Translations under genes and position numbers: made by a program | The notes under the pieces: generated by a model | Database searches by the model: none | Told to the model about the DNA's origin: nothing | The model's input: the letters and a program-made list of their open reading frames with translations, nothing else | Shown here: positions 43,076 through 58,600 of the stretch, piece by piece | Layout of the letters: the number at the start of each line of letters is the position of its first letter | Numbering within the stretch: the first letter of the stretch is position 1 | From: Solwaraspora sp. WMMD791 | GTDB lineage: Bacteria > Actinomycetota > Actinomycetes > Mycobacteriales > Micromonosporaceae | Length of the DNA: 64,000 nucleotides | Direction: 5' to 3' | Assembly: GCF_029581195.1 (NCBI RefSeq) | Contig: NZ_CP120737.1 | Location: forward strand, 6,425,001-6,489,000

Positions 43076-43155
43076 CAATTCCGGCTCTCCACCAATTTTC
43101 TTCGTCAATCGTGTCTGCTCGCTGACGCCTGCCCTGATTCAGTCAGATCCAATGG

Positions 43156-43184
43156 TTGACCGAACCTAGACGTTCAACTAATCT
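43156..43184 (+). promoter_or_regulatory. Promoter of the thiopeptide operon
   Basis: TTGACC (43156-43161), a 17-bp spacer and TAATCT (43179-43184), close to the vegetative consensus. An operator-like GAACGTC core (minus strand, 43169-43175) lies in the spacer and a full copy of the motif lies at 43202-43218 just downstream. The rest of 43076-43269 shows no gene. Confidence 0.7.
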
Positions 43185-43201
43185 CAAGCACAGCAAGAAG
43201 C

Positions 43202-43218
43202 TAGAACGTCAGGTGGAA
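43202..43218 (+). promoter_or_regulatory. Operator candidate (shared 17-bp motif), thiopeptide promoter
   Basis: TAGAACGTCAGGTGGAA fits the motif TNGAACGTCRGKTGRAW shared with sites at 58556-58572 (minus) and 58622-58638 (plus). It lies about 20 bases after the predicted transcript start, a repressor position. Confidence 0.55.
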
Positions 43219-43269
43219 GTCAAGGAGCGGCCCAGCGAACGGCTTCCCGGGCCGACAAGGAGGTGCGCG

Positions 43270-43458
43270 ATGTTGGCGGAACTGTCGACGACCTGGGATT
43301 CCACCCAGGACTACGACCTGGACATCGACGTGGACGGACTGGACCTCGGGCCACTGACCGTCACCGCGATGCGGGACTCGGTGGCACTGCCCGAGACCGG
43401 AGCGTCCTCGGCCGGCGACGGCGGCCGGGCCTCCTGCTCCTGCTGCTACGTCACCTGA
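43270..43458 (+). CDS. Thiopeptide precursor peptide 1 (lactazole-like)
   Basis: A 62-residue precursor with AAGGAGG 6 bases before its ATG. The acidic leader has the motif LDLGPLTVTAMRDSVALPET, nearly the same as the lactazole leader (LRDTVALPENGA as I recall it). Predicted cleavage after LPETGA gives the 17-residue core SSAGDGGRASCSCCYVT. Ser1 and Ser12 could form the pyridine, with thiazoles from Cys11, Cys13 and Cys14. The charged Asp5 and Arg8 are unusual in thiopeptides. First gene of the operon; a hairpin (43464-43486) follows. Confidence 0.82.
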   Translation: MLAELSTTWDSTQDYDLDIDVDGLDLGPLTVTAMRDSVALPETGASSAGDGGRASCSCCYVT

Positions 43459-43463
43459 CCGGC

Positions 43464-43515
43464 GCGGCGTCACCCGTCGACGCCGCCCGCCCGACGACCC
43501 CGCGACCCTGCGGGG
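43464..43515 (+). terminator. Two hairpins between the precursor genes
   Basis: GCGGCGTC/GACGCCGC (43464-43471 with 43479-43486) and CCCCGC/GCGGGG (43498-43503 with 43510-43515). Neither has a T tract, so they more likely protect mRNA or weaken read-through than end it. Confidence 0.5.
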
Positions 43516-43541
43516 CGAACCCCAACCGAAAGGTGAATCAC

Positions 43542-43730
43542 ATGTCCGACGACATCATCGACGTCGAAGACCTCGAGCTCGACGAACTGTCCGTCAGCTC
43601 GATCCGCGACTCGGCCGCCCTGCCGGAGACCGGCGCCTCCTCCGGCTCGTCGAGCTGCAGCTCCAGCTCCTGCTGCGGCGCCAGCTCCTGCTGCTCGTCG
43701 TGCGCCGACGCCGAACTGCAGGCGAACTGA
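43542..43730 (+). CDS. Thiopeptide precursor peptide 2 (Ser/Cys-rich core)
   Basis: A 62-residue precursor with GAAAGG upstream of its ATG. The leader LELDELSVSSIRDSAALPET matches that of precursor 1. After LPETGA comes a 30-residue core with 13 Ser and 6 Cys in the first 22 positions, ending in the unmodifiable tail ADAELQAN. That tail resembles a follower region of the kind removed or retained in lactazole (QPQDM). Ser1 could pair with Ser11, Ser17 or Ser21, each followed by Cys, so ring size is not fixed by the sequence. Same enzymes would act on both precursors. Confidence 0.82.
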   Translation: MSDDIIDVEDLELDELSVSSIRDSAALPETGASSGSSSCSSSSCCGASSCCSSCADAELQAN

Positions 43731-43814
43731 CCCAGCCACCCGCCCACCACCGGGGCACCACCGGCAGTGTCAGGGATTGCCGGTAGCCCGGGTCCGGGCG
43801 AGTCACGCCAGTCA

Positions 43815-43845
43815 CGCGGAGGGGGCGCACCGCGCCCCCTCCGCG
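43815..43845 (+). terminator. Perfect 14-bp hairpin between precursor 2 and the transporter
   Basis: Arms 43815-43828 and 43832-43845 with an ACC loop and no T tract. Placed between short precursor genes and the enzymes, it is likely a partial terminator or mRNA stabiliser giving high precursor and lower enzyme levels. Confidence 0.65.
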
Positions 43846-43867
43846 CGTCGTATCCGAAGGAGTGCTC

Positions 43868-44797
43868 GTGGAAGTCTTCGCCCGTCTCGACACCGTCACC
43901 AAGACGTACGGCGCCGTGGTCGCACTCGACGCCGTCTCCGTCGTGGTGCCGGCCGGGGTCACCGCCGTGCTCGGCCCCAACGGTGCCGGCAAGTCGACAA
44001 TGATCGAAATCCTGGCCGGCCTGCGCCGCCCCACCTCGGGCCGGGTCGAAGTGCTCGGCGCGAGCCCCGCCGACGTACCGGTCAAGGCCCGACTGGGGCT
44101 GACCCCGCAGCGGACCGCCCTGCCCTGGCGACTCACCGTCGCCGAGACCCTCGCCCTCGTAGCCGCCCACTACCCGCACCCGGTGCCCCGCGCGGAGCTG
44201 GTAGACCAGCTCGGACTCGGCCCGTTCCTGAGCAAGCGGTGCGGCACCCTCTCCGGCGGTCAGCGCCGCCGGGTCGCCCTGGCGACCGCCCTCGTCGGCC
44301 GTCCCGACCTGCTCTTCCTCGACGAACCGACCACCGGCCTCGACGCCGACAGCCGCGACGGACTGTGGTCGGCGATCGCCGCCGTCGCCGCCCAGGGCAG
44401 CGCGGTGCTGCTCACCACCCACGACATGGCCGAGGCCGAACACCTCGCCACGCGGGTCGTGGTCGTCGCCGGAGGGCAGATCGCCCGGACCGGTGCGGTC
44501 GACGACGTCGTCGCCGAGGTCGGGCTGCACCTGGTCGACGTCGAGGTTGCCGGCCCGCTGCCGCCGATCGCCGTCTCCGGCCCCGCCGACCGGGTGACCA
44601 CCGTCGGCAACCGTACCCACATCTACACCGCCGACCCGGACGCCACCGTCCGGGCCCTGGTCCGCGCGGACGTGCCGTTCACCGGAATCCGGGTCGAGCG
44701 GGTCGGCCTGGAGGAGGCGATCCGCACGATCAGCCGGACGACCGACCCGGGCGCCGTGGCCCGGCCCGCGATCCGCGTTGCCGAAAAGGTGGCCTGA
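43868..44797 (+). CDS. ABC transporter ATP-binding protein (RiPP export/self-protection)
   Basis: A 309-residue ATPase. Walker A is GPNGAGKST, the signature is LSGGQRRR, Walker B is LLFLDEPTTGLDA and the switch His is in TTHDMAEAEH. It is of the DrrA type with a C-terminal extension. AAGGAG ends 5 bases before GTG 43868; GTG 43862 overlaps that site. Together with the next gene it probably exports or gives immunity to the thiopeptides. Confidence 0.92.
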   Translation: MEVFARLDTVTKTYGAVVALDAVSVVVPAGVTAVLGPNGAGKSTMIEILAGLRRPTSGRVEVLGASPADVPVKARLGLTPQRTALPWRLTVAETLALVAAHYPHPVPRAELVDQLGLGPFLSKRCGTLSGGQRRRVALATALVGRPDLLFLDEPTTGLDADSRDGLWSAIAAVAAQGSAVLLTTHDMAEAEHLATRVVVVAGGQIARTGAVDDVVAEVGLHLVDVEVAGPLPPIAVSGPADRVTTVGNRTHIYTADPDATVRALVRADVPFTGIRVERVGLEEAIRTISRTTDPGAVARPAIRVAEKVA

Positions 44798-44798
44798 C

Positions 44799-45554
44799 AT
44801 GCGCTACGTCCTGCTGCACGCCCGGGCGCACGCCCTCGACACGCTGCGGATGCCCGCCTACTGGGCCCCGGCGTTGGGCTTCCCGCTGGTGTTCTTCCTG
44901 CTCTTCGGCCTGGTCAACGCCAACCGCTACGCCGGTCTCGGCCTGGGCAGTGAGTACGCCATCACCCCGTTCCTGCTCTACACCACCCTCAACGTCACCG
45001 TCGCCTCGCTGGCCGCAGGCGTCGCCGCCGACCGGGAGAACCCGTGGGAGCAGCGGCTCCGGCTGCTGCCGCTGTCACCGCTGACCCGGTTCGTCGGCCG
45101 GCTGGTCTACGTCCTCGGCTTCAACGTGATCAGCTGGATTCCGCTGCTGATCGTCGCCGCCGTCACCACCGACCTGCGGCTGCCCCTGGTGGCCTGGCCG
45201 GTCTGGCTCGGCGCGGTCGTCGTCGGCGCCATCCCGTTCGGCCTGCTCGGCATGGCGATCGGCTACCGCCTCGCCCCGCAGCCGGCGATGATGCTGGCGA
45301 ACCTGCTGTTCATGCTGCTGGCCTTCTTCGGCGGCCTGTTCGTGCCGATCGACTACCTGCCGTCGGCGCTGCACGCCGTGGTGCCGTACGTGCCCACCTA
45401 CCAGTACCAGTACTTCGTGCTGGCGCTGATCGACCGGGCCGACCACCTGATCGGACCGAGCTGGATCGCCTTCCTGCTGCTGGGCTGGACGGCGCTGTTC
45501 GCCCTGCTCGCCCGCGCCGCGTTCCGGCGCGACGAGGGGGTGCGGTACGGATGA
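44799..45554 (+). CDS. ABC-2 type permease
   Basis: A 251-residue membrane protein with six predicted helices, of the ABC-2 family, for example FNVISWIPLLIVAAVTTDLR and the late FFGGLFVPIDYLPSAL loop typical of exporters. It follows the ATPase by one base and overlaps the dehydratase start, so it belongs to the thiopeptide operon. Confidence 0.9.
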   Translation: MRYVLLHARAHALDTLRMPAYWAPALGFPLVFFLLFGLVNANRYAGLGLGSEYAITPFLLYTTLNVTVASLAAGVAADRENPWEQRLRLLPLSPLTRFVGRLVYVLGFNVISWIPLLIVAAVTTDLRLPLVAWPVWLGAVVVGAIPFGLLGMAIGYRLAPQPAMMLANLLFMLLAFFGGLFVPIDYLPSALHAVVPYVPTYQYQYFVLALIDRADHLIGPSWIAFLLLGWTALFALLARAAFRRDEGVRYG

Positions 45555-48280
45555 CCGGGATCGCCGTCGTCCCGGCCACCGCCGACCGGCGGCCGGCGAT
45601 CGACACCACGCTGGCACCGTACGCGCTGGTCCGGCTGGCCGCCCTGCCGTATCCGGCGACCCCGGCCGCCACCCGGCGCTTCCGGGCCGCCCTGCGGCAG
45701 CTGGTCGACCTGCGGGCGCGGATCACCGAGCTGGCCCCGCCGCTGGCCGACGCGCTGTACGCCAGCGCCGACGCCCACCCGGCCGAGTTCCACCGTAGGG
45801 CGGTGCTGCCGCTGCGCCGCGACGTGCACAACGGGCGGTTGCCCCGGCCGGAACGGCTCGCCGCCCTCGGCGACCTGCTGGACCGGGTGCCGGACCTGAC
45901 AGCCTGGCTGGCGATGATGCGCCAGGCCGCGCAGGTGCGGGCGGAGCTGGCCGAGCTGGCCACCGACGCGCTCGGCGCCGAACGCGCCGCGCTGGCCGAG
46001 GTCTGCGCCGCCGAACCGCTGCGCCGGGCGGTCACCCTCACCGGCGCCGACCTGCTGCGCGGCATCGACCGGGCGGCCGCCGCCGGTGCCCACCCGGACA
46101 GCCGGGCCCGCAAGTCGGAACCGAACGCGCTGCGGTACGCGTTGCGGGCCACCGCCAAGACCAGTCCACTGTCCTGGTTCACCTACGTGGGCTGGGGCAA
46201 CTGGGTCGACCCGCCGACGGCGCCGCCGACACCGACGACGGACCCGACGTCGGCACCGACGGTGGCACCGACGGCGTCGGCCGATGCGGCCGTACCGGTC
46301 GACCCGGCGGCGGTCGCCGACCCGCCGGTGGCCGTGGCCCAGGCCAACCGGACCCTGCTGGCCCGCCTGCTCGCCGCGGTGCTGGCCGAACCGGCCCTGC
46401 GCGACACCGTGCCGCACCGGCTCGCCGCCGCGATCACCATCACGGGTGACCAGCTGACGTTCCGCCGGGACCGCCCGGTGCAGGGCGTCGACCGGATCAT
46501 CTCGGTGCTGGAGGAAGAGGTCTCGCTGGCCTGCACCGGACCGCTGCGGCTGCTGATCGACCGGACCCGGGCCGCCGGCCCGGCCGGGGTCACCCCGGGT
46601 GACCTGGTCGCCGAGCTGGCCCGGCGACTGCCCGGCGGCCCGCAGCGTACCGCCGCCGCCGCGACCCGCTACGTCGGACAGGTCCTCGACGCCGGGCTGC
46701 TGCTGGCCGTCGAACCTGTCGACCCGCAGGACCCGCAGGCGCTGCGGCACATCGCCGACTGGCTCGGCCGGCACGGCCGGCCCGACCTGGCCGCGCTGCT
46801 CGCCGACATCGACGCGCGGACCGAACGGTTCGGCACCGTCACGGCCGGCGAGCGGGCCGCCGCGCTGGCGTCGCTGCGCGACGCCTGGCGCAGCGCCTAC
46901 GAGGCGGTCGGACTGTCCTGGTTCGACGCACCGGTGCTGGCCGAGGACGTGGCGGTGCGCACACCGCTGCGGCTGGGCCGGGCCCACGGCCGGGCCGCCG
47001 CCGACGCGCTGCCCGCGCTGGCCGGGCTGGTCGAGCTGTTCGACCAGTACCTGCCGCTGCGTCGGCTGGTCCGGGACCGCTTCGTCGCCCGGTACGGCGT
47101 CGGCGGGCGGTGCCCGCGCGCCGCCGACTTCTCCACCGAGATGAGCCAGGTGTGGCGGGCGTACAACCTGGTCACCCCCTCCGGGGTGATCAGCCCGGCG
47201 GCGGAGTTCGCCGACCTGGTCACCCCGCAACTGCGGGAACTGGCCGAGGCACGGGCCGGGCTGCTGGCCCGGCTGCGGGCGGCGGCACCGGCCGACGCGG
47301 CCGAGTTCACCCTGCCGGACGGGATCGTCCGGGACGCGGCGGCGGCCCTGCCCGCCTGGGTCACCGCCCGCCCCGCCTCGTACGCCTACTTCGTCCAGCC
47401 GGCCCGCACCGCGCGGGCCGACCTGCTGGTGCTCAACCACGTGTACGCCGGTTGGGGCCGGTTCACCAGCCGGTTCCTCGACCTGCTGGCGCCACAGGCG
47501 AAGGCGCAGGTGGCGGCGCAGATCCGGGCGACCCTCGGCCCGCGCGCCCAGGTGGCACAGTTCCGCCCGGTCACCGGGTTCAACGCCAACCTGCATCCGC
47601 TGCTGGTCGACCACGAGGTGGGCGAGGACGGCCGCTGGGCCGACCTGCTCGCCGACCGGGTCGGGCTGCGCCACGACCCGGTGACCGACCAGGTACGGCT
47701 GGTCCGCGACGACACCGGCGCCGACCTGGACGTGCTCTACCTCGGGTTCCTCGTCCCGTTCGTGATGCCGGACCGGACCGTACCGCTGCATTTCGACCTC
47801 AGCAGCGGCCTGGTCGGACCGGGCCTGCTCGCCCCGACCGGCGAGGTGGCCGGTGCCCGGCACCGGACCCGGCTGCGCTACCGCGACCTGGTGCTCAGCC
47901 GGCGTTCCTGGACGCTGCCGACCGAGGCCGCGCAGCGGCTACGGGACGACCTGGAGGCCGACGGCGACGTGCCGTTCGACGCGGTCGGCACCTGGCGGGC
48001 CCGCCTCGGCCTGCCCGCCGAGGTGTTCGTCGCCGCCGCCGGGGTGGACGTGCGCGGCGGCCCGGACGACTACCAGCGCTACCTGTCGCTGCCCAAACCG
48101 CAGTACGTCGACCTCGACAACGCGCTGCACCTGCGGAACCTGCCCCGGCTGCTGGCCCGTCACGACGGGCCGGTGCGGTTCGAGGAGGCCCTGCCGGTGC
48201 CCGGCGTCGGCAACCCGCAGGGGCGGGTCGTCGAGCTGGTCGCCGAGACCTACCGGAAGGGGTGGGGCGGCCATGACTGA
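45551..48280 (+). CDS. Thiopeptide dehydratase, tRNA-Glu-dependent glutamylation subunit (LanB N-terminal type, LazB-like)
   Basis: A 909-residue protein of the LanB N-terminal class. Such proteins move glutamate from glutamyl-tRNA to Ser/Thr of the precursor; elimination then gives dehydroalanine. The N-terminal IDTTLAPYALVRLAALP, the central KTSPLSWFTYVGWG and SWFDAPVLAEDV, and the late LNHVYAGWGRFTSRF and FNANLHPLLVDHEV match lantibiotic dehydratases of thiopeptide clusters. The elimination domain is absent and is supplied by the LazF-like protein. A Pro/Thr/Ala-rich insert lies at about 220-255. ATG overlaps the permease stop. Confidence 0.88.
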   Translation: MTGIAVVPATADRRPAIDTTLAPYALVRLAALPYPATPAATRRFRAALRQLVDLRARITELAPPLADALYASADAHPAEFHRRAVLPLRRDVHNGRLPRPERLAALGDLLDRVPDLTAWLAMMRQAAQVRAELAELATDALGAERAALAEVCAAEPLRRAVTLTGADLLRGIDRAAAAGAHPDSRARKSEPNALRYALRATAKTSPLSWFTYVGWGNWVDPPTAPPTPTTDPTSAPTVAPTASADAAVPVDPAAVADPPVAVAQANRTLLARLLAAVLAEPALRDTVPHRLAAAITITGDQLTFRRDRPVQGVDRIISVLEEEVSLACTGPLRLLIDRTRAAGPAGVTPGDLVAELARRLPGGPQRTAAAATRYVGQVLDAGLLLAVEPVDPQDPQALRHIADWLGRHGRPDLAALLADIDARTERFGTVTAGERAAALASLRDAWRSAYEAVGLSWFDAPVLAEDVAVRTPLRLGRAHGRAAADALPALAGLVELFDQYLPLRRLVRDRFVARYGVGGRCPRAADFSTEMSQVWRAYNLVTPSGVISPAAEFADLVTPQLRELAEARAGLLARLRAAAPADAAEFTLPDGIVRDAAAALPAWVTARPASYAYFVQPARTARADLLVLNHVYAGWGRFTSRFLDLLAPQAKAQVAAQIRATLGPRAQVAQFRPVTGFNANLHPLLVDHEVGEDGRWADLLADRVGLRHDPVTDQVRLVRDDTGADLDVLYLGFLVPFVMPDRTVPLHFDLSSGLVGPGLLAPTGEVAGARHRTRLRYRDLVLSRRSWTLPTEAAQRLRDDLEADGDVPFDAVGTWRARLGLPAEVFVAAAGVDVRGGPDDYQRYLSLPKPQYVDLDNALHLRNLPRLLARHDGPVRFEEALPVPGVGNPQGRVVELVAETYRKGWGGHD

Positions 48281-49439
48281 CGCCCTCGACATCGTCACCT
48301 ACTACCATTCGCCGACCAAGCTGCCGCTGCTGCGCGCGGCGGTGCTGCCGGCCGCCCGCTGGGCCGCCGGGCAGGGGTTCGCCGTACACCTGGAACGGCA
48401 CTGGCGGCACGGACCGCACCTGCGGATCCGGCTGGCCGCCACCGACCCGGCCGGCGCGGCGGAGCTGGCCGTGGTCGCGACCGCGGTCGCCGGCCGGCTG
48501 CGCCGCCACCTCGCCGAGCAGCCCAGCACCGAGCAGATCAGCGTCGCCGAGCTGCTCGCCCAGGCCGAACAGGCCGGCCGGATCGAGCTGGTGCCGCCGC
48601 CGTACGCGCCGATCCACCCGGACAACACCGTCCGCGTCGAACCGGTCGACGACCGCGCGTTGGCGACCCTGTTCGGCTCCGCCGAGGCGGTCGAGTGCCG
48701 GGCCGAGCTGCTGCGCCTGGGGGTGCCGGCGGTCGCTGCCGCCGCCGACCGGTTGGCCACCGCCGGTGACAGCGCCGCCGCCCGGGTACGGACCTGCGTG
48801 ACCGCGATGGCGCTGCACGCCGGCCGCTACCCGCTCGGGCTCGGCAGCGGCCACCAGTCGTTCCTGTCGCATCTGGAGGAGTTCCTCGTCCACCACGACC
48901 CGGACGGTCGGGTACGGGCCGCGTTCGACCGGCAGTGGCAGCGGTCCGCCGACCCGGTGACCGCCCTGGTCGCCCGGCTGGCGACCCCGACGGACGCGCC
49001 GGGGTCGGGGCTGGACCCGGCGGAACGGGAGTGGGAACAGTGGACGGTGCGGGCCGCCGAGGTGAGCGGGGCCGCGTACGCCCGGGGTGAACTGCCTCGG
49101 GTGCCAGGGGAGCGCTACCTGGAGCGGGCCGAGCAGATCGGCGACCCGGACACGGTACGCCGCTGGCACTCGGAGCGCACCGAGTACAGCGAGTACCACC
49201 AGCTGCTGCGGCAGGTCGACTTCGACCGGGTCCCGTACGAGCGGGAGTTCGTCACCTACCGCTTCGCCACCAACGTGCTCTACCTGCTGCTGGGTCTGCT
49301 GGACGTGCAGCCGACCGAGCGCTACCTGGCCGCCTACCTGCTCAGCCGGGCGGCCGAACGGATCACCGGAATCACCTGGCAGGAACGGATCACCGGTTAC
49401 CTGACCAGGTTGGCCGCGACGGCACAGGAGGTGGCGTGA
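48273..49439 (+). CDS. Thiopeptide pyridine synthase ([4+2] cycloaddition enzyme, LazC/TclM-like)
   Basis: A 388-residue protein of the SpaB C-terminal-like fold used by thiopeptide pyridine synthases. It should fuse two dehydroalanines and release the leader, closing the macrocycle. Key segments are YYHSPTKLPLLRAAVLP, ERHWRHGPHLRIRL, the HxSxLSHLEEFL-like GHQSFLSHLEEFLVHH and the C-terminal ITGITWQERITGYL. Length and the neighbours (LanB before, E1-like and YcaO after) match LazC. It overlaps the dehydratase gene by 8 bases. Confidence 0.85.
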   Translation: MTDALDIVTYYHSPTKLPLLRAAVLPAARWAAGQGFAVHLERHWRHGPHLRIRLAATDPAGAAELAVVATAVAGRLRRHLAEQPSTEQISVAELLAQAEQAGRIELVPPPYAPIHPDNTVRVEPVDDRALATLFGSAEAVECRAELLRLGVPAVAAAADRLATAGDSAAARVRTCVTAMALHAGRYPLGLGSGHQSFLSHLEEFLVHHDPDGRVRAAFDRQWQRSADPVTALVARLATPTDAPGSGLDPAEREWEQWTVRAAEVSGAAYARGELPRVPGERYLERAEQIGDPDTVRRWHSERTEYSEYHQLLRQVDFDRVPYEREFVTYRFATNVLYLLLGLLDVQPTERYLAAYLLSRAAERITGITWQERITGYLTRLAATAQEVA

Positions 49440-51394
49440 TGAGCCCGCAGCCATTGACCACGGCCGCGGAGGTCGGGGCAGCCGACGACCCGCAGCCGAC
49501 AGCGGGGACCGTCGTGCGACTGCGACCGGTGGTGTTCGCCACTCCGACCGGCACCGGGGTGCACGTACGGGGCTGGTCGTCGAGCTTCACCGTCAGCGGT
49601 GGCACCGGGGTGTGGACGGTGTGGCAGCTGCTCGCCCGGCAGCTGGCCGGCGGGCTGTCACCGCAGCGGCTGGCCCGACCGGTCGGCCGACCTGAGGTGG
49701 ACCGGGCCGTCCGGCTGCTGCTGGAGCAGCTGCGCGAACACGACATGCTGGTCGAGGTGCCGGCCGGCTGGGGCGACCGGGACGAACCCGGGCTGCCGCC
49801 GGCCGACCTGGCCCGCTGGCTGGAGTCGGTGGCCGCCGACCCGGCGGCGGCCTGGGACCGGCTGCGGTCGACCACGGTCACCGTGGCCGGCACCGGCCCG
49901 GTGGCGGCGGCCGCGACCCGGACGTTGACCGGCACCGGCCTGACCGTCGACGCGCCCGGCGGCACCGGCCCGGACACCGTCGTGCTCGCCGGCGACGCGG
50001 CGGTCGCGGCCCGCTGCCTGGCCGAGACCGGGTACGTGACCCCGGTCGCCGCGCCGGGCGAGGTGAGCGCGCACAGCGCGGCGATCGCCACCCGGCTGAC
50101 CCGCGACACCGACGGCGGGCCGGCCACCGCCGAGCCGGCCGCCGTTGATCGGCCGGCCGCCGCCGGCCGGGTGGCTCCGGCGCTGGCCGCGCTGGTCGGT
50201 GCCGCCGCCGCGCACCGGATCGTCTGCGCCGTCGCCGGGCTGCCGGACCCGGCCGAGGAGGCCGCCACCCTGCCCGGTGGGGAACCCGCCGCACCCGGCC
50301 CGCACTACCCGGCCGCGCTGGTCGCCCGGCTCGACCCGGTCCGGGCCACGTACCACCCGTGGTTGCCGGCGGCCCGTGCCCCGCTGCCCGGCGCCCCGGC
50401 CGACATCGACGCGGTCGGCCTGCGCCTGGCGGCGCTGGGCGACCCGGTGCTCGGCCCGGTACCGGCGGCCCTGCCCGGCGACCTGCCGCAGCTGCCGGCG
50501 ATGCTGGCGCTGGCCGGCCCGGCGCTCGGTGTCGCCGCCACCGCCGACGCCGCCCGCATCGACGCCACCCTGCGCTACGTCGAGACCCACCTGGGCCTCA
50601 CCGGGGCACCACCCGCCGTCGACCAGGCGACGCCGCCGACGCCGGCTCTGACGCCGACGCCGGCTCTGACGCCGACGCCGGCTCTGACGGCGACGCGGTC
50701 GGTGACGGCGGCCGCGGTCGGCGTGGACACGCGGCACGCCACCGGGGTCGCGTTGCGCCGGCTGGTCCACGCCGTCGGCCACCACCTCGACGCCGTCGAG
50801 GTGGCCGAGGCCGAGTGGGCCACCGCACCGGCCGCCCGACGCTGGTGGAAGGCGCTGACCCGGCGGTTCGGCGTACCGGCGCGGGTGGTGGCCCACCGAC
50901 TGCCCGCCGGCGCGGTGCACGCCGAGATCGTCACCGACGACGGGCCGCTGGCCTGGGCGGTGGAGGCCGACGCCGCCGACGCGGTGGCGCTGGCGGCGCT
51001 CGCCGCGACCGGGGTCGCTCAGGCCCGGGCCGCCGGCGTCGAGGTGCCGACCGGCCCGGTGAGCCTGGCCGGCGCGGCACCGACCTGGCTGCCCGGCGAC
51101 CCGCAGCTGGCACCGTGGACCGACGACACCTGGTACTGGCCGGCCGGGGTGATCGACCACGAGGAACGGCTGCAGCAGGCGCTGCGGGCAGCGCTGACCA
51201 CCGGCGGCGCCACCCTGACGGGGCGGCCGGTGGTGCCGGACACCGCCGACACCGATCCCGCCGACGAGGACACCCACACGGTCGTCCACGCGCTGGCCGT
51301 CACCGGTTTCGTGGCGCGGAGCTTCCGGTGGACCGCCGCCGTGTCCGACGACACCACCGCGGGCCCCACCGCCACCCCGAGCCGAGGAGCCTGA
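49439..51394 (+). CDS. RRE-containing E1-like (ocin-ThiF) cyclodehydratase partner, LazD-like
   Basis: A 651-residue protein. Residues about 20-105 look like a RiPP recognition element (winged-helix, PqqD-like; VVRLRPVVFATPTGTGVHVR...AVRLLLEQL), which binds the leader peptide. A Rossmann-like E1/ThiF region follows (TVTVAGTGPVAAAATRTL). An insert with an 18-bp DNA repeat (PTPALTPTPALTPTPALT) precedes the C-terminal domain. It presents precursors to the YcaO enzyme. AGGAGG lies 7 bases before ATG 49439, which shares one base with the previous stop. Confidence 0.82.
   Translation: MSPQPLTTAAEVGAADDPQPTAGTVVRLRPVVFATPTGTGVHVRGWSSSFTVSGGTGVWTVWQLLARQLAGGLSPQRLARPVGRPEVDRAVRLLLEQLREHDMLVEVPAGWGDRDEPGLPPADLARWLESVAADPAAAWDRLRSTTVTVAGTGPVAAAATRTLTGTGLTVDAPGGTGPDTVVLAGDAAVAARCLAETGYVTPVAAPGEVSAHSAAIATRLTRDTDGGPATAEPAAVDRPAAAGRVAPALAALVGAAAAHRIVCAVAGLPDPAEEAATLPGGEPAAPGPHYPAALVARLDPVRATYHPWLPAARAPLPGAPADIDAVGLRLAALGDPVLGPVPAALPGDLPQLPAMLALAGPALGVAATADAARIDATLRYVETHLGLTGAPPAVDQATPPTPALTPTPALTPTPALTATRSVTAAAVGVDTRHATGVALRRLVHAVGHHLDAVEVAEAEWATAPAARRWWKALTRRFGVPARVVAHRLPAGAVHAEIVTDDGPLAWAVEADAADAVALAALAATGVAQARAAGVEVPTGPVSLAGAAPTWLPGDPQLAPWTDDTWYWPAGVIDHEERLQQALRAALTTGGATLTGRPVVPDTADTDPADEDTHTVVHALAVTGFVARSFRWTAAVSDDTTAGPTATPSRGA
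50633..50686 (+). repeat. In-frame 18-bp tandem repeat in the LazD-like gene
   Basis: Three copies of ACGCCGACGCCGGCTCTG encode PTPALT units, a flexible linker between the E1-like domains. Such repeats may vary in number between strains. Confidence 0.8.
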
Positions 51395-51397
51395 ACC

Positions 51398-53326
51398 ATG
51401 TCGACCCGTACCGTTGCCACCCCGGTCACCGCGCTGGCGGAGGCCCTGCGCCTCGCCGGTCACCCGGCACCCGTGCGCGACGCGGCCACGGCCTGCGACA
51501 TCGAGGCCGGTGCGACCATGGTCGTCCTGCTCGACGACTGGACCCCCGCGCTGGCCGCGCGGCTCAGCGACCAGGCCTGGCGGCACGCCGCGACCGTCGT
51601 ACCGGTCCGCCTCGACGGCGGCCTGGTGCTGGTCGGTCCGGTGCTGCGCCCGACGGCGAGCGTCTGCCTGGCCTGCGCCGAGGCGGCCCGGCTGCGGGTG
51701 TTCGGGCCGGGGGTGCCCCGCCGCAACCCGGGGCTGCGGCTGGGCGGCACCGTCCCACCGAGCCTGCTGCCGGTGGTGGCCGGCACCGTCGCCGACGCGC
51801 TGACCGAGCCGGACCGGTTCGACGCGACCGTGGTGGCGATCCGCACCGACCACGCCACCGTCAGCAGCCACCGGGTCCGGCCCCGCCGGCAGGGCTGCCG
51901 GGTCTGCCGGCCGGTGCCGCTGGACACCCCGGACGGCGCCGAAGTGGCCCTCACCGCCACCCCGACCGGTGACCCCTACTCGCTGCGCGGCGACAACCCG
52001 CGCACCACCCGGGAAGCGTTGCGCGCCGAACTGTTCGACTGGCGGCACGGGCCCGTCGCCCACATGATCCGCACCGAGCGGTCACCGATGGCGTTGAGCA
52101 CCAGCGAACTCGCCAGCGACACCCCGGTCCGGGAAGCCGGCTACGGCCGGGCCCGCAGCTTCGCCGAATCCGAGCGGGTCGCCCTGTTCGAAGCCGTCGA
52201 ACGGGCCACCGGGATGCGGCCGTACCGGCGGCGTACCGCCGTCGAAGCGGCCTTCGCCGACCTCGGCCCGGACCGGGCGGTCGACCCGGTCCGGCTCGGG
52301 TTGCACGACCCGGCGCACCACGACCACCCGGCGTTCCGGATGGTGCCCTACACCCCGCAGACCCGGACCCGCTGGGTGTACGGCTGGTCGCTGGGTCGCC
52401 GCCGACCGGTGCTGGTGCCGGAGCACGTCGCCTACTGGGGCCTGCACCGCGGCGCCGGAGCCCGGTTCCTCTACGAAAGCTCCAACGGCTGCGGCCTGGG
52501 CAACAGCGCCGTCGAGGCGGCCCTGTACGGCATGTACGAGGTCGCCGAACGCGACGCGTTCCTGATGGCCTGGTACGCGCGGACCCCGCTGCGCCCGGTC
52601 GCCGTCCCCGACGACGACCCGGTGCTGCCGCACCTGGTGGACCGGCTCGACACGATCGGCTACGACCTGCTGTTCTTCGACGCCACCAACGATCTCGAGG
52701 TGCCGACGGTGCTGGCCCTGGTGCTGCACCGTGACCCGACCAGCGGCGCGCCGCAGGCGTTCTTCGCCGCCGGTGCCCACCCGGACCCCCGGGCGGCGCT
52801 GCGGTCGGCGGCGGCCGAGGCGGTGGTCGACGTGTTCAGCCTGCCCGAGGTGGCCCGCAACAAGCCCGGCCACCTCGACCCTGGCCGGCTACAGGCGATG
52901 TTCGACGATTCCCGGCTGGTCACCGGCCTGGAGGAACACGTCGCGGTGAACACCTTGCCGCAGGCCCGGCAGCGGTACGAGTTCCTGCTCACCGGTGAGC
53001 AGCCGGCCCACTGGCGGGACGTGTGGCCGGGCCGCCCGGCCCCGGTCACCGACCTGGCGGCGCTGCTCGGCGAGACCGTCGACCGCTGGGCCGCGCGCGG
53101 CCTGGAGACGATCGTGGTCGACCAGACCGATCCGTCGACCCGCGACCGGCTGGGGCTGCACTCGGCGAAGGTGATCGTCCCCGGCACGTTGCCGATGACG
53201 TTCGGCCACGTACACCACCGCACCCGTGGTCTGGACCGGCTGTTGCGGGTCCCGGCCGAGCTGGGCCGGCTGCCGGCACCGCTGCGCTACGCCGATCTGC
53301 CCCTGTACCCGCACCCGTTCCCGTGA
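51398..53326 (+). CDS. YcaO cyclodehydratase (azoline-forming), LazE-like
   Basis: A 642-residue enzyme that uses ATP to cyclise Cys/Ser of the precursor into azolines. The N-terminal part has a four-Cys zinc site (VCLACAE near residue 88 and GCRVCRP near 168). YcaO ATP-binding motifs are SFAESERVALFEAVERA, ESSNGCGLGNSAVEAAL with EVAERDAF, and RSAAAEAVVDV. The Pro-rich C-terminus PLYPHPFP is the PxPxP motif needed for catalysis in azoline-forming YcaOs. It begins 3 bases after the LazD-like gene. Confidence 0.93.
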   Translation: MSTRTVATPVTALAEALRLAGHPAPVRDAATACDIEAGATMVVLLDDWTPALAARLSDQAWRHAATVVPVRLDGGLVLVGPVLRPTASVCLACAEAARLRVFGPGVPRRNPGLRLGGTVPPSLLPVVAGTVADALTEPDRFDATVVAIRTDHATVSSHRVRPRRQGCRVCRPVPLDTPDGAEVALTATPTGDPYSLRGDNPRTTREALRAELFDWRHGPVAHMIRTERSPMALSTSELASDTPVREAGYGRARSFAESERVALFEAVERATGMRPYRRRTAVEAAFADLGPDRAVDPVRLGLHDPAHHDHPAFRMVPYTPQTRTRWVYGWSLGRRRPVLVPEHVAYWGLHRGAGARFLYESSNGCGLGNSAVEAALYGMYEVAERDAFLMAWYARTPLRPVAVPDDDPVLPHLVDRLDTIGYDLLFFDATNDLEVPTVLALVLHRDPTSGAPQAFFAAGAHPDPRAALRSAAAEAVVDVFSLPEVARNKPGHLDPGRLQAMFDDSRLVTGLEEHVAVNTLPQARQRYEFLLTGEQPAHWRDVWPGRPAPVTDLAALLGETVDRWAARGLETIVVDQTDPSTRDRLGLHSAKVIVPGTLPMTFGHVHHRTRGLDRLLRVPAELGRLPAPLRYADLPLYPHPFP

Positions 53327-53333
53327 GGTCGCC

Positions 53334-54599
53334 ATGTCGTCCCGTCAGCTCGTCGAAGTGCTCGCCGACGTCTACGCGCACGGACCCGGCAAGGACGTCC
53401 GGCCCGGCCCGGCACCGCCGTACCGCGCCCCGGCCGCGCCCGGCGGCGTCGCGCTGACCGCGCTGGCCGCCGCCGGCGAGGTCGGCGACCGACTGGTCAA
53501 GGTGCTGACCGCCGCGTTGGCGCCGCGCCGCTACGAGCCGTGGAACGGGTTCAACGAGCATCGTGCGTACCCGTCGCCACGGGCGGCGTACCTGGTCGAC
53601 GTGGCGGTGCGGTGCGGTGCCGCCGACTGGCTGGTCGACCCGGTCCGGGGGTGGCTGCACCCGGTGCGGCCCAGTTCGGTGCCGTCGGCGGTGCCGGCCG
53701 GGTCGGCTGGGCCGACGTCGCTGGCGGTGCCGACCGGGTTGGTGCTGCTGGAACGCCCCGGCCGGCTACCGGCCGGCTACGGCCGGCTCGCCGACGCGTT
53801 GGCCGCGCTGGAGGCCGGGCACGTCGCCGGGGCACTGGTCGAGGCGGCCGCCGGGCACGGGCTGCAGGTCACCGTACGGACGCAGGGCCGGCAGCTGACC
53901 GTCGAGCTCGGGCCGACGAGCGCCGCCGCCGGGCCGCGGCCCCGGCTCCGGGCGGTACGCAGCTCCGGGCTGAGCCCACGCGGGCTCGGCGCGGACCCGA
54001 GACCGCTGCCGGCGGCGGTGTTCGACCGGCTGGTCGCCGCCGCGTACCGGCCGCCGACCGGGTCCCCGGCCGCCTGGCCGGGCCTGCGGCACACCGTCGC
54101 CGTCGGCAACGTCACCGACCGACCGGCCGGCTGGTACGACCTGCCGCCTCCGGCGGGCACGCCGGAGGCGTCCGCAGCCGGAGCAGCCACATCGGCGGCA
54201 TCGCCACCGGTGGCGCCGCCACCGGTGGCGCCGACCCGGGCGGGTGACGCGATCGGGCAGGTGCAGCAGGCGTACACCTATCCGCGTACCGAGGTCGACG
54301 TCGCCGGCATGCCGCTGGCCTGGCTGGTCAGCGCGGACGTCGGCGCGGTGGTCCGGGCCGACGGCCCGGCCGGCTACCGGCGGCTGCTGCACACCGTCGG
54401 CGCCCTGGCCCAGCACGTCGGCACCGCAGCGGCCGAGGCGGGGCTGTTCTGCCGCCCGGTCCGCGCGGTCCGTGAGGCCGCCGCCGAGGCCGCCGCCGCG
54501 CTGCCCGCCGGGCACGACCTGATCTACCTGTTGTTGATCGGCCGGTCGCGGGTGCGTGACTTCGCCTACGACCTGAGCGACCCGGAGGTGCCGCTGTGA
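53334..54599 (+). CDS. Nitroreductase-like (SagB-type) protein, second dehydrogenase-like protein of the cluster
   Basis: A 421-residue protein. Segments NEHRAYPSPRAAYLVDVAVR, then HTVGALAQHVGTAAAEAGLFCRPV and DLIYLLLIGRS follow the pattern of FMN-dependent SagB-type azoline dehydrogenases, but the middle is divergent and rich in Ala/Pro. It is not part of the lactazole gene set as I know it. It might help the LazF-like enzyme, act on a different azoline, or be a non-catalytic partner. Seven bases separate it from the YcaO gene. Confidence 0.65.
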   Translation: MSSRQLVEVLADVYAHGPGKDVRPGPAPPYRAPAAPGGVALTALAAAGEVGDRLVKVLTAALAPRRYEPWNGFNEHRAYPSPRAAYLVDVAVRCGAADWLVDPVRGWLHPVRPSSVPSAVPAGSAGPTSLAVPTGLVLLERPGRLPAGYGRLADALAALEAGHVAGALVEAAAGHGLQVTVRTQGRQLTVELGPTSAAAGPRPRLRAVRSSGLSPRGLGADPRPLPAAVFDRLVAAAYRPPTGSPAAWPGLRHTVAVGNVTDRPAGWYDLPPPAGTPEASAAGAATSAASPPVAPPPVAPTRAGDAIGQVQQAYTYPRTEVDVAGMPLAWLVSADVGAVVRADGPAGYRRLLHTVGALAQHVGTAAAEAGLFCRPVRAVREAAAEAAAALPAGHDLIYLLLIGRSRVRDFAYDLSDPEVPL

Positions 54600-56356
54600 C
54601 CGCTGCGACCATGACCGCCACCGTCCGCCGTACCTGGGTGGGACTGCACTGTTTCGTCTACTGGTCACCGGCCGACCTGGACACCTTCCTGTCGGCGACG
54701 GTGGCGCCGCTGCTGGACCGGTTGCGCGCCGACGGTGGAATCGCCGACTGGTTCTACATCCGCTACTGGGAGGGCGGTCCGCATCTGCGGATCCGGATCC
54801 GGGATCCGTTGCCAGGCGTCGGCGAGCAGCTGCGCGAGCAGCTGTCGGCGCTGGTCGCGCAGGCACCGTACGAGGTGTTCGCGCTCGACGGGGACAGCTA
54901 CTACCAGCGGCTCGGCGGCGACGCCGCCCGGTCCGCCGCCGGCTGGCACGCCCACGGCGAGGTCCGCGAGATCGCCTACCAGCCGGAGACCGCCCGGTAC
55001 GGCGGCCCACCGGCGGTGCCGGTCGCCGAGGACGTCTTCTGCCGGTCCAGCCAGGTGACCGCCCGGATCGTCGGCGCGGTGCCGCCCGGCCCGGCCCGGC
55101 TGTCGGTCGCGGCCGAACTGGCCACCGCCACCGCCGCCGCGCTGGGCCTCGACGAGCTGGGCGCGGCCCGCTGGCTGCGCGGTCACGCCGCCGGTTGGCG
55201 GTGGCAGAACGAGGTGGCGATGCTGCCGGCCGCCGCCGTCCAGGGCCAGGCCGCCCGGGTGCTCGCCAGCCAGGGCCGGGCGTTGCGCCGCCGCTGGGAC
55301 CGCACCGTCGCCCTGGTGGGCGGCGAACCGGACCGGTCGCCGGCGGCGTACTGGGCACAGGTGGTCCGGTCGGCGCGCCGGGAGCTGGAAGGGGCGGCCG
55401 CCGACGGACCGGCCGACCAGCGGTGGCGCTGGGTGTGGGGCTCCCAGCTGCACATGTTGTTCAACCGGCTGGGCATCCTGCCCGACGAGGAGCGCTCGGT
55501 GTGCTGGCTGGTGGCCGGTACGGCGTTGGCCCCGGCCGGGCCGGTGGACTTCTTCGCCGACGGCGCGGCGGCGGCCGACCGCCGCTATCAGGAGGCCAGC
55601 AAGTTCCTGCCGGGGCTGTTGCAGACGCAGAGGCCGCGTGAGTCCGCCACGGAACGGAGCGGGACCCCGTTCCGGTTCGGCGGTCGGCCGGTTCCTCTGC
55701 CCGCCGGGGACCCGCCGCGTGCCGCACTCGCAGACGTGCTGCGCCGGCGGGTCTCCGGTCGGGGGCGGCTGACCGGCCCGGTCGACGCCGCCGACCTGGG
55801 GGCTCTGGTGTGGAGCGCGCACGGGGTCACCCACCGGACGCAGGTGCCGCTGCCCAGCGGGGACCGCTACGACTACGCCCACCGCCCGTACCCGAGCGCC
55901 GGCGGCACGTACGTGGCCCGGATGCGACTGATCGCCCGCGACGTCGCCGGCATCGGCGCCGGCGTCTACCACGTCGACGACACCGACCGGCAGCTGTGGC
56001 GGCTCGGACCGGCACCGACGGTGCCGGAGCTGACGGCGTCGTCGATGTGGTTCGGCGCCGACGCCCTCGACGTCGGTGGGATCGACCTGGCCGAGGTGCC
56101 GGCCCTGCTCGGGCTCTACGTGCAGGTCGGCGAGCTGCGGGACCGGTACGGCATGCGGGCGCTGCGGTTCGCCGTGGCCGAGGCCGGCCACCTGGCGCAG
56201 ACCCTGGCGATGGTGGCGGCGGCGTCCGGGTTGGCGCTCGGCATGATCGGCGGCTTCTACGACGACGTCGCCCACGAGCTGCTCGGCCTGGACGGCATCG
56301 ACGACGTGCTGGTCTACCTGCTGCCGGTGGGGCGCTTCCCGGCGGGTGCGGCGTGA
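54596..56356 (+). CDS. Fused glutamate-elimination domain and azoline dehydrogenase, LazF-like
   Basis: A 586-residue bifunctional protein. The N-terminal half (about 10-330) is of the SpaB_C type that removes glutamate to give dehydroalanine: FVYWSPADLDTFL, WFYIRYWEGGPHLRIRIRD and LHMLFNRLGI. The C-terminal half (about 360-580) is a SagB-type FMN dehydrogenase that oxidises azolines to azoles: RPYPSAGGTYVARM, AEAGHLAQTLAMVAAASGL and the final VLVYLLPVGR. The GTG overlaps the previous stop by 4 bases. The fusion is as in LazF. Confidence 0.88.
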   Translation: MTAATMTATVRRTWVGLHCFVYWSPADLDTFLSATVAPLLDRLRADGGIADWFYIRYWEGGPHLRIRIRDPLPGVGEQLREQLSALVAQAPYEVFALDGDSYYQRLGGDAARSAAGWHAHGEVREIAYQPETARYGGPPAVPVAEDVFCRSSQVTARIVGAVPPGPARLSVAAELATATAAALGLDELGAARWLRGHAAGWRWQNEVAMLPAAAVQGQAARVLASQGRALRRRWDRTVALVGGEPDRSPAAYWAQVVRSARRELEGAAADGPADQRWRWVWGSQLHMLFNRLGILPDEERSVCWLVAGTALAPAGPVDFFADGAAAADRRYQEASKFLPGLLQTQRPRESATERSGTPFRFGGRPVPLPAGDPPRAALADVLRRRVSGRGRLTGPVDAADLGALVWSAHGVTHRTQVPLPSGDRYDYAHRPYPSAGGTYVARMRLIARDVAGIGAGVYHVDDTDRQLWRLGPAPTVPELTASSMWFGADALDVGGIDLAEVPALLGLYVQVGELRDRYGMRALRFAVAEAGHLAQTLAMVAAASGLALGMIGGFYDDVAHELLGLDGIDDVLVYLLPVGRFPAGAA

Positions 56357-56841
56357 CCGCCACCGCGCGACGGAGCGCTGGCGACGGAGCCTCCGACCGG
56401 TGGGGCGATGGCGATGGAGCCCGCTGGCGGGGCAATGGCGAAGCCCCCGACCGTCAGGGAACGTCGGGGGCCGACTCCAGTGTGCCACGACAGCCCGGTG
56501 TGGCGCACCAGTGCGGGGAGTCGGCCGCGGCGGCCGCCGCCGTACGGGTGCTGGACGGGGTGAGCGCGTTGCGTGCGGTGGCCGACCCGATCCGACTGCA
56601 GGTGCTCGGTGTGCTGACCGCCGAACCGCAGCAGGCCTACTCGGCGCGCCAGCTCGCCCACCGGCTGGGTATCACCTTCAGCCTGATGCACTACCACCTG
56701 CGGGTGCTCACCGAGGAGGGGATGGTCCGGGTGGTCAACCAGCGGACCGGGCACGGGCGGGCGGAGCGCTGCTTCCAGACCGCGCAGTTGGCGCTGCGCT
56801 GGGAGTTTCCGCCGGCCTCAGGCGGGGATCAGCCCGGATGA
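56353..56841 (+). CDS. ArsR-type winged-helix regulator of the thiopeptide operon
   Basis: A 162-residue protein. The first 65 residues are low-complexity; the ArsR-type helix-turn-helix follows: LRAVADPIRLQVLGVL, YSARQLAHRLGITFSLMHYHLRVL and a wing with VNQRTGHGRAERCF. No metal-binding Cys pair is visible. The GTG overlaps the LazF-like stop by 4 bases; later in-frame GTGs are possible. Its 3' end overlaps the radical SAM gene on the other strand by 24 bp. It ends the operon and may control it. Confidence 0.75.
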   Translation: MTATARRSAGDGASDRWGDGDGARWRGNGEAPDRQGTSGADSSVPRQPGVAHQCGESAAAAAAVRVLDGVSALRAVADPIRLQVLGVLTAEPQQAYSARQLAHRLGITFSLMHYHLRVLTEEGMVRVVNQRTGHGRAERCFQTAQLALRWEFPPASGGDQPG

Positions 56842-58176
56842 GCGCACCTGCAGGTCGATCCGGGCGGCCAGGTTCTCCTTCAGCGGCGGGCAGGGCGGTT
56901 TGTCCTCCCGCCACAGCTTCGGGCAGGCGCCGCCGCAGACCGGCAGGATCGGGCAGGACCGACAACCGGTCTCACCGGCGCGCAGCCCGGCGTACCAGTC
57001 GTCGTAGCGGCCTTCCGGGCGCAGCTGCCCGGCCGGCACACTGTCCACGGTGCCGAGGTGTTCCCCGGTGAAGCCGGGCACCAGCGGCTGTTCGGTGCAG
57101 GAGTAGAGATGCCCGTCGGGGGCGACGACCTCGCTGTGCCGCGACGCGGCGGTGCACACCACCCGTACCGGCTGGCTGGGCAGCACCCGGCAGTGCAGTC
57201 CGGCGGCGAGGTAGGCGGCGTACCAGCGCACCTCGGTGTCGGCGGCGTGCCGCTGGCGCAGCCGTACGTCGCTGACGTCGTTGCCCCAGGAGTGCACCGG
57301 CGCCGGGTAGAACCGGATGCGGGGGTCGGCGAGTCCGGCGTCGCGCATCGCGGTGGCGAAGGCGTCCGCCTGGTCGGCGTTGTGGGTGCCGACGTTGGTC
57401 CGGACGGTGATCCGCAATCCGGCCAGGTCCGGGTCGGTGAGGACGCCGCGCAGCGCGGCGGTGATCCGGTCGTAGGAGCCCTGTCCACTGTTGAGCGGTC
57501 GGGACGCCTCGTGCACCGGGGCCGGGCCGTCGATGGTGACCTCGATCTGCGCCACCCGGCAGTCACGGTGCAGGGTCCGCAGCTTGCGGGCGTCGAGCAG
57601 GGCGCCGTTGGTGACCAGCAGCGCCGAGTACGCGACGCCGTGCCGGTCGGCGTCGGCGGTGAACCGGGCGGACAACGCGCGCAGGACGGCGTACCCCATG
57701 AGGGGTTCGCCGCCGAACCAGCGCACCACGACGCGGTCGTAGTCGCCGCTGGCCATGGCCTGCTCGACGCGGGCCGCGATGGTCTCGCGGTGCCGGGCGG
57801 GTCGGCCCGCCGGGGTGTCCCGCCGGTGTTCCTGCCCGCAGTAGCCGCAGCCCATGTTGCAGTAGGCGGTCGGCATCACCACGAACTGACGGGTGCGGGT
57901 GGTGGCGGCTTCCTGCTCGCCGGCGGCGATGACGGCGGCGGCCTCGTCGGTGCCGGCCGGCACGAGTACGCCGAGCGTGGCGAGCCGCCGCTGTTCGTCG
58001 GCGGGCAGGCCGGCCGGGTCGCCGACGGTCAGGGTCCGCACGGTGTCGGTGTCGAGCAGCAGGGTACGAGCCCGTCCGGTGTGGAACACCGCGCGTAGCT
58101 GCCGGCCGCTGGGGTGCCGGTAGATGGTCGGGCTGAACACGAGGTAGCGGCTGGGCACGAGGTCGGGCAGGACCAT
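56818..58176 (-). CDS. Radical SAM-SPASM peptide-modifying enzyme
   Basis: A 452-residue enzyme. Residues about 8-75 look like an N-terminal leader-binding (RRE-like) region. The radical SAM motif CX3CX2C is Cys106, Cys110, Cys113 in YCNMGCGYC, with GGEPLMGY following. The C-terminal SPASM part has Cys in VCTAASRH, LYSCTEQP, GCRSCPILPVCGGAC and PPCPPL, enough for auxiliary iron-sulfur clusters. Such enzymes cross-link RiPP side chains. The small peptide gene just upstream (58302-58502) is the likely substrate. ATG 58176 is chosen because the open frame further upstream covers that peptide gene in another frame. Confidence 0.88.
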   Translation of the reverse strand: MVLPDLVPSRYLVFSPTIYRHPSGRQLRAVFHTGRARTLLLDTDTVRTLTVGDPAGLPADEQRRLATLGVLVPAGTDEAAAVIAAGEQEAATTRTRQFVVMPTAYCNMGCGYCGQEHRRDTPAGRPARHRETIAARVEQAMASGDYDRVVVRWFGGEPLMGYAVLRALSARFTADADRHGVAYSALLVTNGALLDARKLRTLHRDCRVAQIEVTIDGPAPVHEASRPLNSGQGSYDRITAALRGVLTDPDLAGLRITVRTNVGTHNADQADAFATAMRDAGLADPRIRFYPAPVHSWGNDVSDVRLRQRHAADTEVRWYAAYLAAGLHCRVLPSQPVRVVCTAASRHSEVVAPDGHLYSCTEQPLVPGFTGEHLGTVDSVPAGQLRPEGRYDDWYAGLRAGETGCRSCPILPVCGGACPKLWREDKPPCPPLKENLAARIDLQVRSSGLIPA

Positions 58177-58301: not shown

Positions 58302-58502
58302 TCAGTTGAAGGCGCAGGCGAAGTTGATGCTGTCGGCCTCGCCGGTGTCGTCGCCGGCCGGCAGTTCGATGGCGATCAGGCTCTGCTCGGCGGCGACCTC
58401 GGCGGCCACGTCGGCGGCGGTCTGGGCGTCGGCGGCGGCCGCGGCGGCGGGGGTGGCGAGGGCGACGGCGGCGATGACGGCGAAGAACGGGTTGGTGGGC
58501 AC
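58302..58502 (-). CDS. Candidate RiPP precursor peptide for the radical SAM enzyme
   Basis: A 66-residue peptide with GGAGG 6 bases before its GTG. The N-terminus is hydrophobic (NPFFAVIAAVALATPAAAAA), followed by an Ala/Glu-rich helical stretch and an acidic part (LPAGDDTGEADS), and ends INFACAFN. The only Cys and both late Phe/Asn pairs are within the last 8 residues, a likely core. Known radical SAM peptides carry their modified residues in a short C-terminal core like this. I know no family with this ending. A small secreted protein is the alternative. Confidence 0.65.
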   Translation of the reverse strand: MPTNPFFAVIAAVALATPAAAAAADAQTAADVAAEVAAEQSLIAIELPAGDDTGEADSINFACAFN

Positions 58503-58555: not shown

Positions 58556-58572
58556 ATCCAACTGACGTTCAA
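58556..58572 (-). promoter_or_regulatory. Operator candidate over the -10 of the peptide/radical SAM promoter
   Basis: On the minus strand TTGAACGTCAGTTGGAT, a copy of the shared motif. It overlaps the -10 element TATTTT (58571-58576), so binding should repress the unit. Confidence 0.6.
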
Positions 58573-58600
58573 AATATCCTGAGCGAAGGACAGAAGTCAA
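58571..58600 (-). promoter_or_regulatory. Promoter of the peptide/radical SAM unit
   Basis: On the minus strand TTGACT (58595-58600), an 18-bp spacer and TATTTT (58571-58576). The region is AT-rich against its surroundings. A weaker copy of the operator motif (58597-58613, 13 of 17 positions) overlaps the -35. Confidence 0.65.

Follow-up and report, generated by a model that had tools for sequence, protein, structure and literature searches.

A lactazole-type thiopeptide operon with a conserved pair of unlike precursor peptides, next to a radical-SAM peptide module, in Solwaraspora sp. WMMD791

In this study, we analysed a stretch of 64,000 nucleotides from Solwaraspora sp. WMMD791 (the window), which corresponds to positions 6425001-6489000 of its genome, a single contig of 6.93 Mb, and within it a set of 11 genes on the plus strand that runs from A1, starting at 43270, through A2, an ABC transporter ATPase, an ABC permease, B, C, D, E, N and F to R, ending at 56841. 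We propose that these genes form a lactazole-type thiopeptide operon in which one enzyme set would convert two unlike precursor peptides into two products, and we put the probability of this reading at about 0.7. Holding several precursors is no novelty for a lactazole-type cluster; what appears to be new here is that two unlike cores form a constant pair which a single enzyme set would serve, and that the operon belongs to a conserved unit together with a radical S-adenosylmethionine (SAM) module for another ribosomally synthesized and post-translationally modified peptide (RiPP). Of 508 predicted thiopeptide clusters, 251 are lactazole-like according to the available text of PMC7210931; one member has been characterised, and no function is known.

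The precursor genes A1 (43270..43458) and A2 (43542..43730) encode peptides of 62 aa each, with the core SSAGDGGRASCSCCYVT in A1 and the core SSGSSSCSSSSCCGASSCCSSC plus a variable tail in A2. Both exceed the 30-bit cut-off of the NCBIfam model NF033400 for thiazolylpeptide-type bacteriocins (E 9.2e-8 for A1 and 2.3e-10 for A2), and the motif RDSxALPETGA, which an earlier annotation of this DNA (the sequence-only reading) had claimed for both leaders, indeed forms the leader end in each. The part of PMC7210931 available to us reports that Ser1, Ser10, Ser11 and Ser12 of LazA are essential, that thiazoles form at positions 5, 7 and 13 and an oxazole at position 11, and that the 32-membered ring arises from Ser1 and Ser12. 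At the equivalent places A1 has Ser1, Ser10, Cys11 (for azole 11), Ser12 and Cys13, which is the lactazole-like arrangement of Ser1 and Ser-azole-Ser-Cys at 10-13. Within its ring positions 2-9, Ser2 is the sole Ser, Thr or Cys, and the charged residues Asp5 and Arg8 are present; such residues are described as rare in thiopeptide cores (PMC7210931, in the text available). A1 is almost a naturally occurring equivalent of the engineered minimal lactazole. A2 lacks the arrangement in that register and appears to represent a different, Ser/Cys-rich core type. The A1 core is identical in 6/6 species of the genus that were compared, with a non-synonymous divergence (dN) of 0.000 and a synonymous divergence (dS) of 0.150; residues 1-22 of the A2 core have a dN of 0.011 and a dS of 0.210, and the last eight residues of A2 a dN of 0.352 and a dS of 0.248. 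With dN far below dS, both cores are maintained by purifying selection; the A2 tail is free to vary.

The enzymes downstream agree with this family assignment. The B-C-D-E-F order that the sequence-only reading had likened to lactazole holds, with N placed between E and F and the ABC genes preceding B. B (45551..48280) is a LanB-type glutamylation protein (Pfam Lant_dehydr_N, 2.3e-22), for which a profile comparison with the PDB gave no informative match. C (48273..49439) matches Pfam Lant_dehydr_C (3.2e-9) and the TbtD/PbtD pyridine synthase model NF045556 (1.5e-51, with 175.7 bits under a cut-off of 325), and its profile finds TbtD (2.5e-18) and PbtD (3.6e-17) in the PDB. D (49436..51394) occupies the LazD position, where a RiPP recognition element (RRE)/E1-like protein is expected, and shows tblastn homology to the Streptomyces lactazole-type D. 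E (51398..53326) is a YcaO cyclodehydratase (YcaO, 3.2e-77; TOMM_cyclo_SagD, 1.4e-81, above the cut-off), N (53334..54599) a diverged nitroreductase/SagB-like protein (Nitroreductase, 2.4e-5), and F (54596..56356) an elimination domain fused to an azoline dehydrogenase (Lant_dehydr_C, 2.7e-39; Nitroreductase, 1.1e-10). The SagB model is matched by 4 of 18 N homologues; locus L093, which has an internal stop, was left out of the N alignment. The protein-family search that had been called for earlier thus recovered the proposed families of B, C, E, N and F in Pfam and NCBIfam, and left D without a match. By homology, C is a TbtD-like pyridine synthase, E is a YcaO protein, and B and F together are a split LanB; a pyridine synthase, a YcaO, a split LanB with an elimination-dehydrogenase fusion, and the B-C-D-E-F order after the precursor are all found here. 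The available text on the laz cluster of Streptomyces lactacystinaeus (PMC7210931), which is described with five enzymes, likewise shows a split LanB (B/F) with the fusion, C, the register of A1 and a split YcaO (D/E), of which the D part is putative here. Unlike laz, the operon studied here has two unlike precursors, the extra gene N, an ABC exporter and a regulator, and lies beside a radical-SAM module.

Other peptide classes fit less well. The pyritide cluster of Micromonospora rosaria, as far as the available text of PMC9247985 describes it, resembles the operon in having two precursors, one dehydratase and one pyridine synthase; its precursors are without Cys and the cluster is without azole genes, whereas here a YcaO and Cys-rich cores are present. 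Goadsporin-type linear azole peptides are, in the accessible part of PMC4603692, made without a pyridine synthase. Because a YcaO and the pyridine synthase C are both encoded, we rejected a pyritide as well as a goadsporin identity.

The A1/A2 pair is conserved well beyond the window. A C-like gene is present in 25 of 201 relatives (E <= 0.001). Ten of these matches are strong (E <= 1e-100), and six of the ten belong to the genus, which is represented by seven genomes when that of the window is counted. Among the window and 18 further loci, the pair was found in the window, 5 same-genus loci and L037-L039. A precursor profile matched 22 of 354 family genomes at E <= 1e-4, and the pair itself is present in 9/354, that is in the window, five same-genus genomes, two of Catellatospora and one of Hamadaea (3 genera). 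One genome (G016) has an A2-type precursor and a variant 3.4 kb away on the opposite strand, and G017, G367 and G027 carry other kinds of precursor, at least two each. As order, spacing and purifying selection persist in 9 genomes of 3 genera, the pair is more than a chance arrangement. Sequence, gene order and conservation lend support both to the earlier assignment to the lactazole-like family and to the proposal of two unlike cores served by one enzyme set.

The contrast drawn in the sequence-only reading, that lactazole has one precursor, sets nothing apart. A wider scan gave 45 related loci, of which 17 carry at least two precursors (profile, E < 1e-6), 22 carry one and 6 none, and the cores differ within each of the 17; three of these (L049-L051) are of the window's own type, and another (L052) has one precursor per arm. 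Multi-precursor lactazole-type loci are therefore common, the earlier contrast is weak, and we rejected the idea that two precursors make the cluster unique. The six loci without a precursor comprise short contigs ending at B or C (L076, L084, L089) and Glycomyces/Streptomonospora loci (L090, L091, L093); in two Glycomyces genomes (G017, G088), precursors were later located beyond the stretch first examined. Two or more precursors are present in 6 of the 14 Streptomyces/Kitasatospora-type loci that have any, and in five loci of this group (L065, L067, L068, L070, L074; at ~6100-7040) the first core begins with SWGSCSCQ and a second precursor is present, its Ser-Ser-Ser-Cys motif being shifted by one residue. 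Five consecutive precursors, with cores all different, are found in Saccharothrix obliqua (L059, 6257-7422). These Streptomycetaceae and Saccharothrix loci share with the window several precursors before one B-C-D-E-F set; unlike in the window, none of their listed cores is of the A2 type, and they show no ABC match between precursors and B. No publication on multi-precursor lactazole-like clusters was recognised in a literature search of titles and abstract starts, which is not proof of absence from print.

A closer comparison is offered by two-arm loci of the Streptosporangiaceae (L052, L053, L071). In Microtetraspora and Streptosporangium, the A2-type precursor, encoded on the opposite strand, comes with a separate set of C, D, E and F (arm 2). 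The other arm (arm 1) contains the remaining precursors together with B, C, D, E and N, and gave no F match in the stretch read; in Nonomuraea, the A2-type precursor is followed by C, D and then the contig end. Like the window, these loci hold both core kinds and one nearby B, to which Microtetraspora adds a distant B-like gene (33%) elsewhere. Unlike the window, they provide the A2-type core with a separate C and D in 3/3 cases and, in the 2 for which enough sequence was read, also with a separate E and F; in these 2, N belongs to the other arm. For the trees of C (57 rows), D (44 rows) and E (51 rows), we left out matches that covered less than half of the query, repeated entries of loci already named and the remote loci L045-L048. 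In these quick trees, whose key forks are not starred, the window groups with arm 1 and Saccharothrix for C, D and E (SH-aLRT support of 82, 89 and 93), and arm 2 groups with Streptomyces for C and D (83 and 94); the arm 2 E is not with Streptomyces and falls into a wider, unresolved group with the window (87). The A2 core scores z 4.6-6.0 against arm-2 cores and 0.2-1.3 against arm-1 cores. For the A2 leader, the scores are 11.9-13.9 with arm-1 leaders, 7.9-11.6 with arm-2 leaders and 14.3 with a lactazole-type leader of Kitasatospora, so that this signal is not specific; 5 of the 6 arm-1 precursors were used in both comparisons. We read A2 as carrying an arm-2-type core that would be handled by arm-1-type enzymes, and a leader swap that brought the A2-type core under an accepted leader is only suggested. 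The unusual part, on this sequence evidence, is that a core type with its own C-D-E-F arm in Streptosporangiaceae shares one set with A1 here. Two conserved unlike cores under one set, in the light of relatives that give the A2-type core its own, would constitute a natural test of enzyme promiscuity. An ABC ATPase match adjoins the A2-type precursor in the window clade, in L036-L039, in L044 and in the two-arm loci, and no ABC match lies between precursor and B in the Streptomyces and Saccharothrix loci; the tie between exporter and A2 is only an association, because the outer-case ATPases are only ~35% identical.

The conserved unit was found to extend to ~59234 and to include the radical-SAM module, so that the earlier boundary at 56841 is too short; the module, the operator-like site and the hairpins described below had all been missed. 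A radical-SAM/SPASM peptide maturase gene (56818..58176, minus strand) is convergent with R, and its product has TIGR04463 as best NCBIfam match (1.5e-51), with 175.5 bits against a cut-off of 525, and is not a member by this cut-off. It is accompanied by a third short precursor (58302..58502, minus strand; 66 aa, GTG start, ending in SINFACAFN) and by a gene for an HTH_20 regulator (58650..59234, plus strand; 8.7e-10). Homologues of this precursor are present in other same-genus loci, which keep the ending [SIV]NF[AG]CAF; in Catellatospora it ends in PNFGCGVC, unlike but Cys-ended, and a Hamadaea candidate, read by eye, is different but also Cys-ended. The start of the third precursor resembles a signal peptide, and a long inverted repeat at 59343-59385, perfect-looking and situated between the HTH gene and the gene that follows it, is probably a terminator. 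Radical-SAM homologues occur in 22 of the 201 relatives at E <= 1e-20 and in 12 at E <= 1e-145, and nine of the ten genomes with a strong C also have a strong radical-SAM match. Counted by genus, 3 have both, 1 C only, 2 radical-SAM only and 78 neither (Fisher p 4e-4, kinship ignored). The module adjoins R in 9/9 genomes with the pair, in inverted form in Catellatospora. Because three genomes (G045, G035, G066) hold the radical-SAM-regulator pair without the thiopeptide operon, we regard it as a module of its own; conversely, G016 has the operon and no radical-SAM match.

An operator-like site is found on both sides, in the window as well as in the majority of its relatives. The A1-side site (43169-43193, plus strand) came from a matrix scan, the matrix being built from six A1-side sites; in the window its own site scores 48.1, a site at the radical-SAM promoter (58564..58588, plus strand) is second with 15.5, and the third match reaches 2.4. 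In L031 and L035 (15.5) and in L050 (13.4), the radical-SAM site likewise takes second place, and the radical-SAM-regulator gap of the three stand-alone loci holds the first or second match (-1.9 to 8.7). In the window, a pattern search returned just the two sites, and 100 shuffled versions gave none, a test that is not independent because the pattern was written after both sites had been seen. With a reverse matrix from the radical-SAM sites, the A1 site takes second place in the window (9.6). The operon and the module may fairly be taken to be co-regulated via this site. However, several results speak against a common operator: the site is weak in L032 and L034 (second, -1.7) and L033 (fourth, -1.7), the radical-SAM promoter region of L049 holds ranks two and three with weak scores (4.8, -0.6), the site is not picked out in Catellatospora coxensis L133 (-5.5, -6.8), and with the reverse matrix an unrelated site at 22926 (7.4) falls just 2.2 bits short of the A1 site.

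Two hairpins follow A2. The first, GGCAGYGTCAGGGAYTGCC (43763..43781, plus strand; 19 nt, invariant loop), lies 20-32 nt after A2 and occurs once each in 9/354 family genomes, which are exactly those with the A1/A2 pair; a reversed-pattern control gave no match in the listed genomes. As the pattern was read off the pair loci, its presence there is expected, and its absence from the other 345 genomes is the result. The second is a long GC-rich hairpin with a ~14-bp stem (43815..43846, plus strand) that folds in 9/9 loci. RNAalifold over the whole stretch gave 24 pairs, 7 of them changed on both sides, with a covariation term of just -0.39, and an Rfam search of 42900-44000 had no match.

In the mechanism that we propose, D/E together with F, and perhaps N, would convert the Cys and some of the Ser residues of both cores to azoles, guided by the common leader end; B/F would form dehydroalanines, C would join Ser1 and a downstream Ser into the pyridine, closing the ring and releasing the leader, and the ABC pair would export the products. 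The A1 product would have a 32-membered ring from Ser1 to Ser12 and thiazoles at Cys11, 13 and 14, and the A2 product a Ser/Cys-rich ring via Ser17 (47-membered) or Ser11 (29-membered) and a dispensable tail, these A2 ring sizes following from 3n-4, a formula fitted to the 32 of lactazole. For A1 with three thiazoles, the pyridine and one further dehydroalanine (Dha), the computed [M+H]+ is 1474.472, and it is 1456.462 if a second Dha forms. Known natural thiopeptide rings are up to 35-membered, a size that a 47-membered A2 ring, if true, would exceed. The hairpins would probably hold the precursor mRNA above the enzyme mRNA, and the radical-SAM module would make a separate RiPP, probably switched together with the operon; such a common switch, if true, would suggest a joint role. 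We consider possible, though on a tentative footing, a conserved and co-regulated RiPP supercluster with one operator and three unlike cores, of which the lactazole-type enzyme set would cyclise two and the radical-SAM enzyme would mature the third; a cluster-specific hairpin would set the precursor dosage, and the A2-type core would have come under an accepted leader.

Some observations weigh against two thiopeptides from one set. D has no domain match in Pfam or NCBIfam, and its profile found none in the PDB, NCBIfam or Pfam either; the best profile matches, to ribosomal S11 in the PDB (0.0014) and, for one member, to Hpt in Pfam (0.00027), are read as chance. Ser11 and Ser17 are present as candidate ring residues in 9/9 listed A2-type cores, but residue 1 is Thr, not Ser, in 2/9. 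Residue 15 of A2, two places before Ser17, is Ala in the window genus, and the matching change in LazA, S10A, abolished the product (PMC7210931, available text), which speaks against Ser17 as the ring Ser if the lactazole rule holds. The same Ala15, shared by six species, and the freely evolving tail would suit a scheme in which only A1 yields a macrocycle and A2 becomes a linear azole/dehydroalanine peptide or a helper; as the second A2 motif at Ser11 is intact and A2-type cores have their own pyridine synthase in Streptosporangiaceae and in the Hamadaea cluster L044, we think this unlikely. A redundant second precursor with no function would fit the frequency of precursor duplication (17/45 loci), but this idea meets two unlike core types, each kept across genera and with a core dN far below dS, and it is the least credible of the explanations weighed here. 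The radical-SAM enzyme could also act on A1 or A2 and add a crosslink within a single thiopeptide pathway, which the fixed adjacency in 9/9 genomes having both and the operator-like site at both promoters would favour; given that a short precursor and a regulator of its own accompany it, and that either unit is found without the other in the four genomes named above, we rejected it as a thiopeptide tailoring enzyme in our main interpretation and hold such a role to be improbable.

The earlier gene order with both precursors is borne out by the gene calls of the window. The junctions are as tight as claimed, with gaps of -8 to +7 bp from the ABC ATPase gene through R, and are wider only around A2 (83 bp between A1 and A2, 131 bp between A2 and the ABC gene). 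The start had been set at 43156, where a conserved TTGACC hexamer provides a TTG, 114 bp upstream of A1; we rejected it as the A1 start, as the conserved coding frame opens at 43270 with an ATG behind AGGAGG. The conserved element upstream of A1 (43156..43193, plus strand), present in 9 loci, consists of TTGACC (43156-43161), 17 nt and TAATCT (43179-43184) and is overlapped by the A1-side operator-like site; a strict sigma-70 promoter scan called no promoter at this element. The exporter genes encode a DrrA-like ATPase (43862..44797; ABC_tran, 2.5e-26; drrA model, 3.7e-56, under the cut-off) and an ABC-2 permease (44799..45554; ABC2_membrane, 1.1e-10), both on the plus strand. For R (56353..56841, plus strand), described earlier as ArsR-like, an HTH_20/ArsR match does exist, but it is weak (HTH_20, 1.6e-6). 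Upstream of the operon, the window encodes a trypsin-like (34815-35819) and a subtilisin-like (36348-37919) protease as well as one protein that combines a GGDEF domain, a STAND-like AAA/NB-ARC ATPase and TPR repeats (38214-41633).

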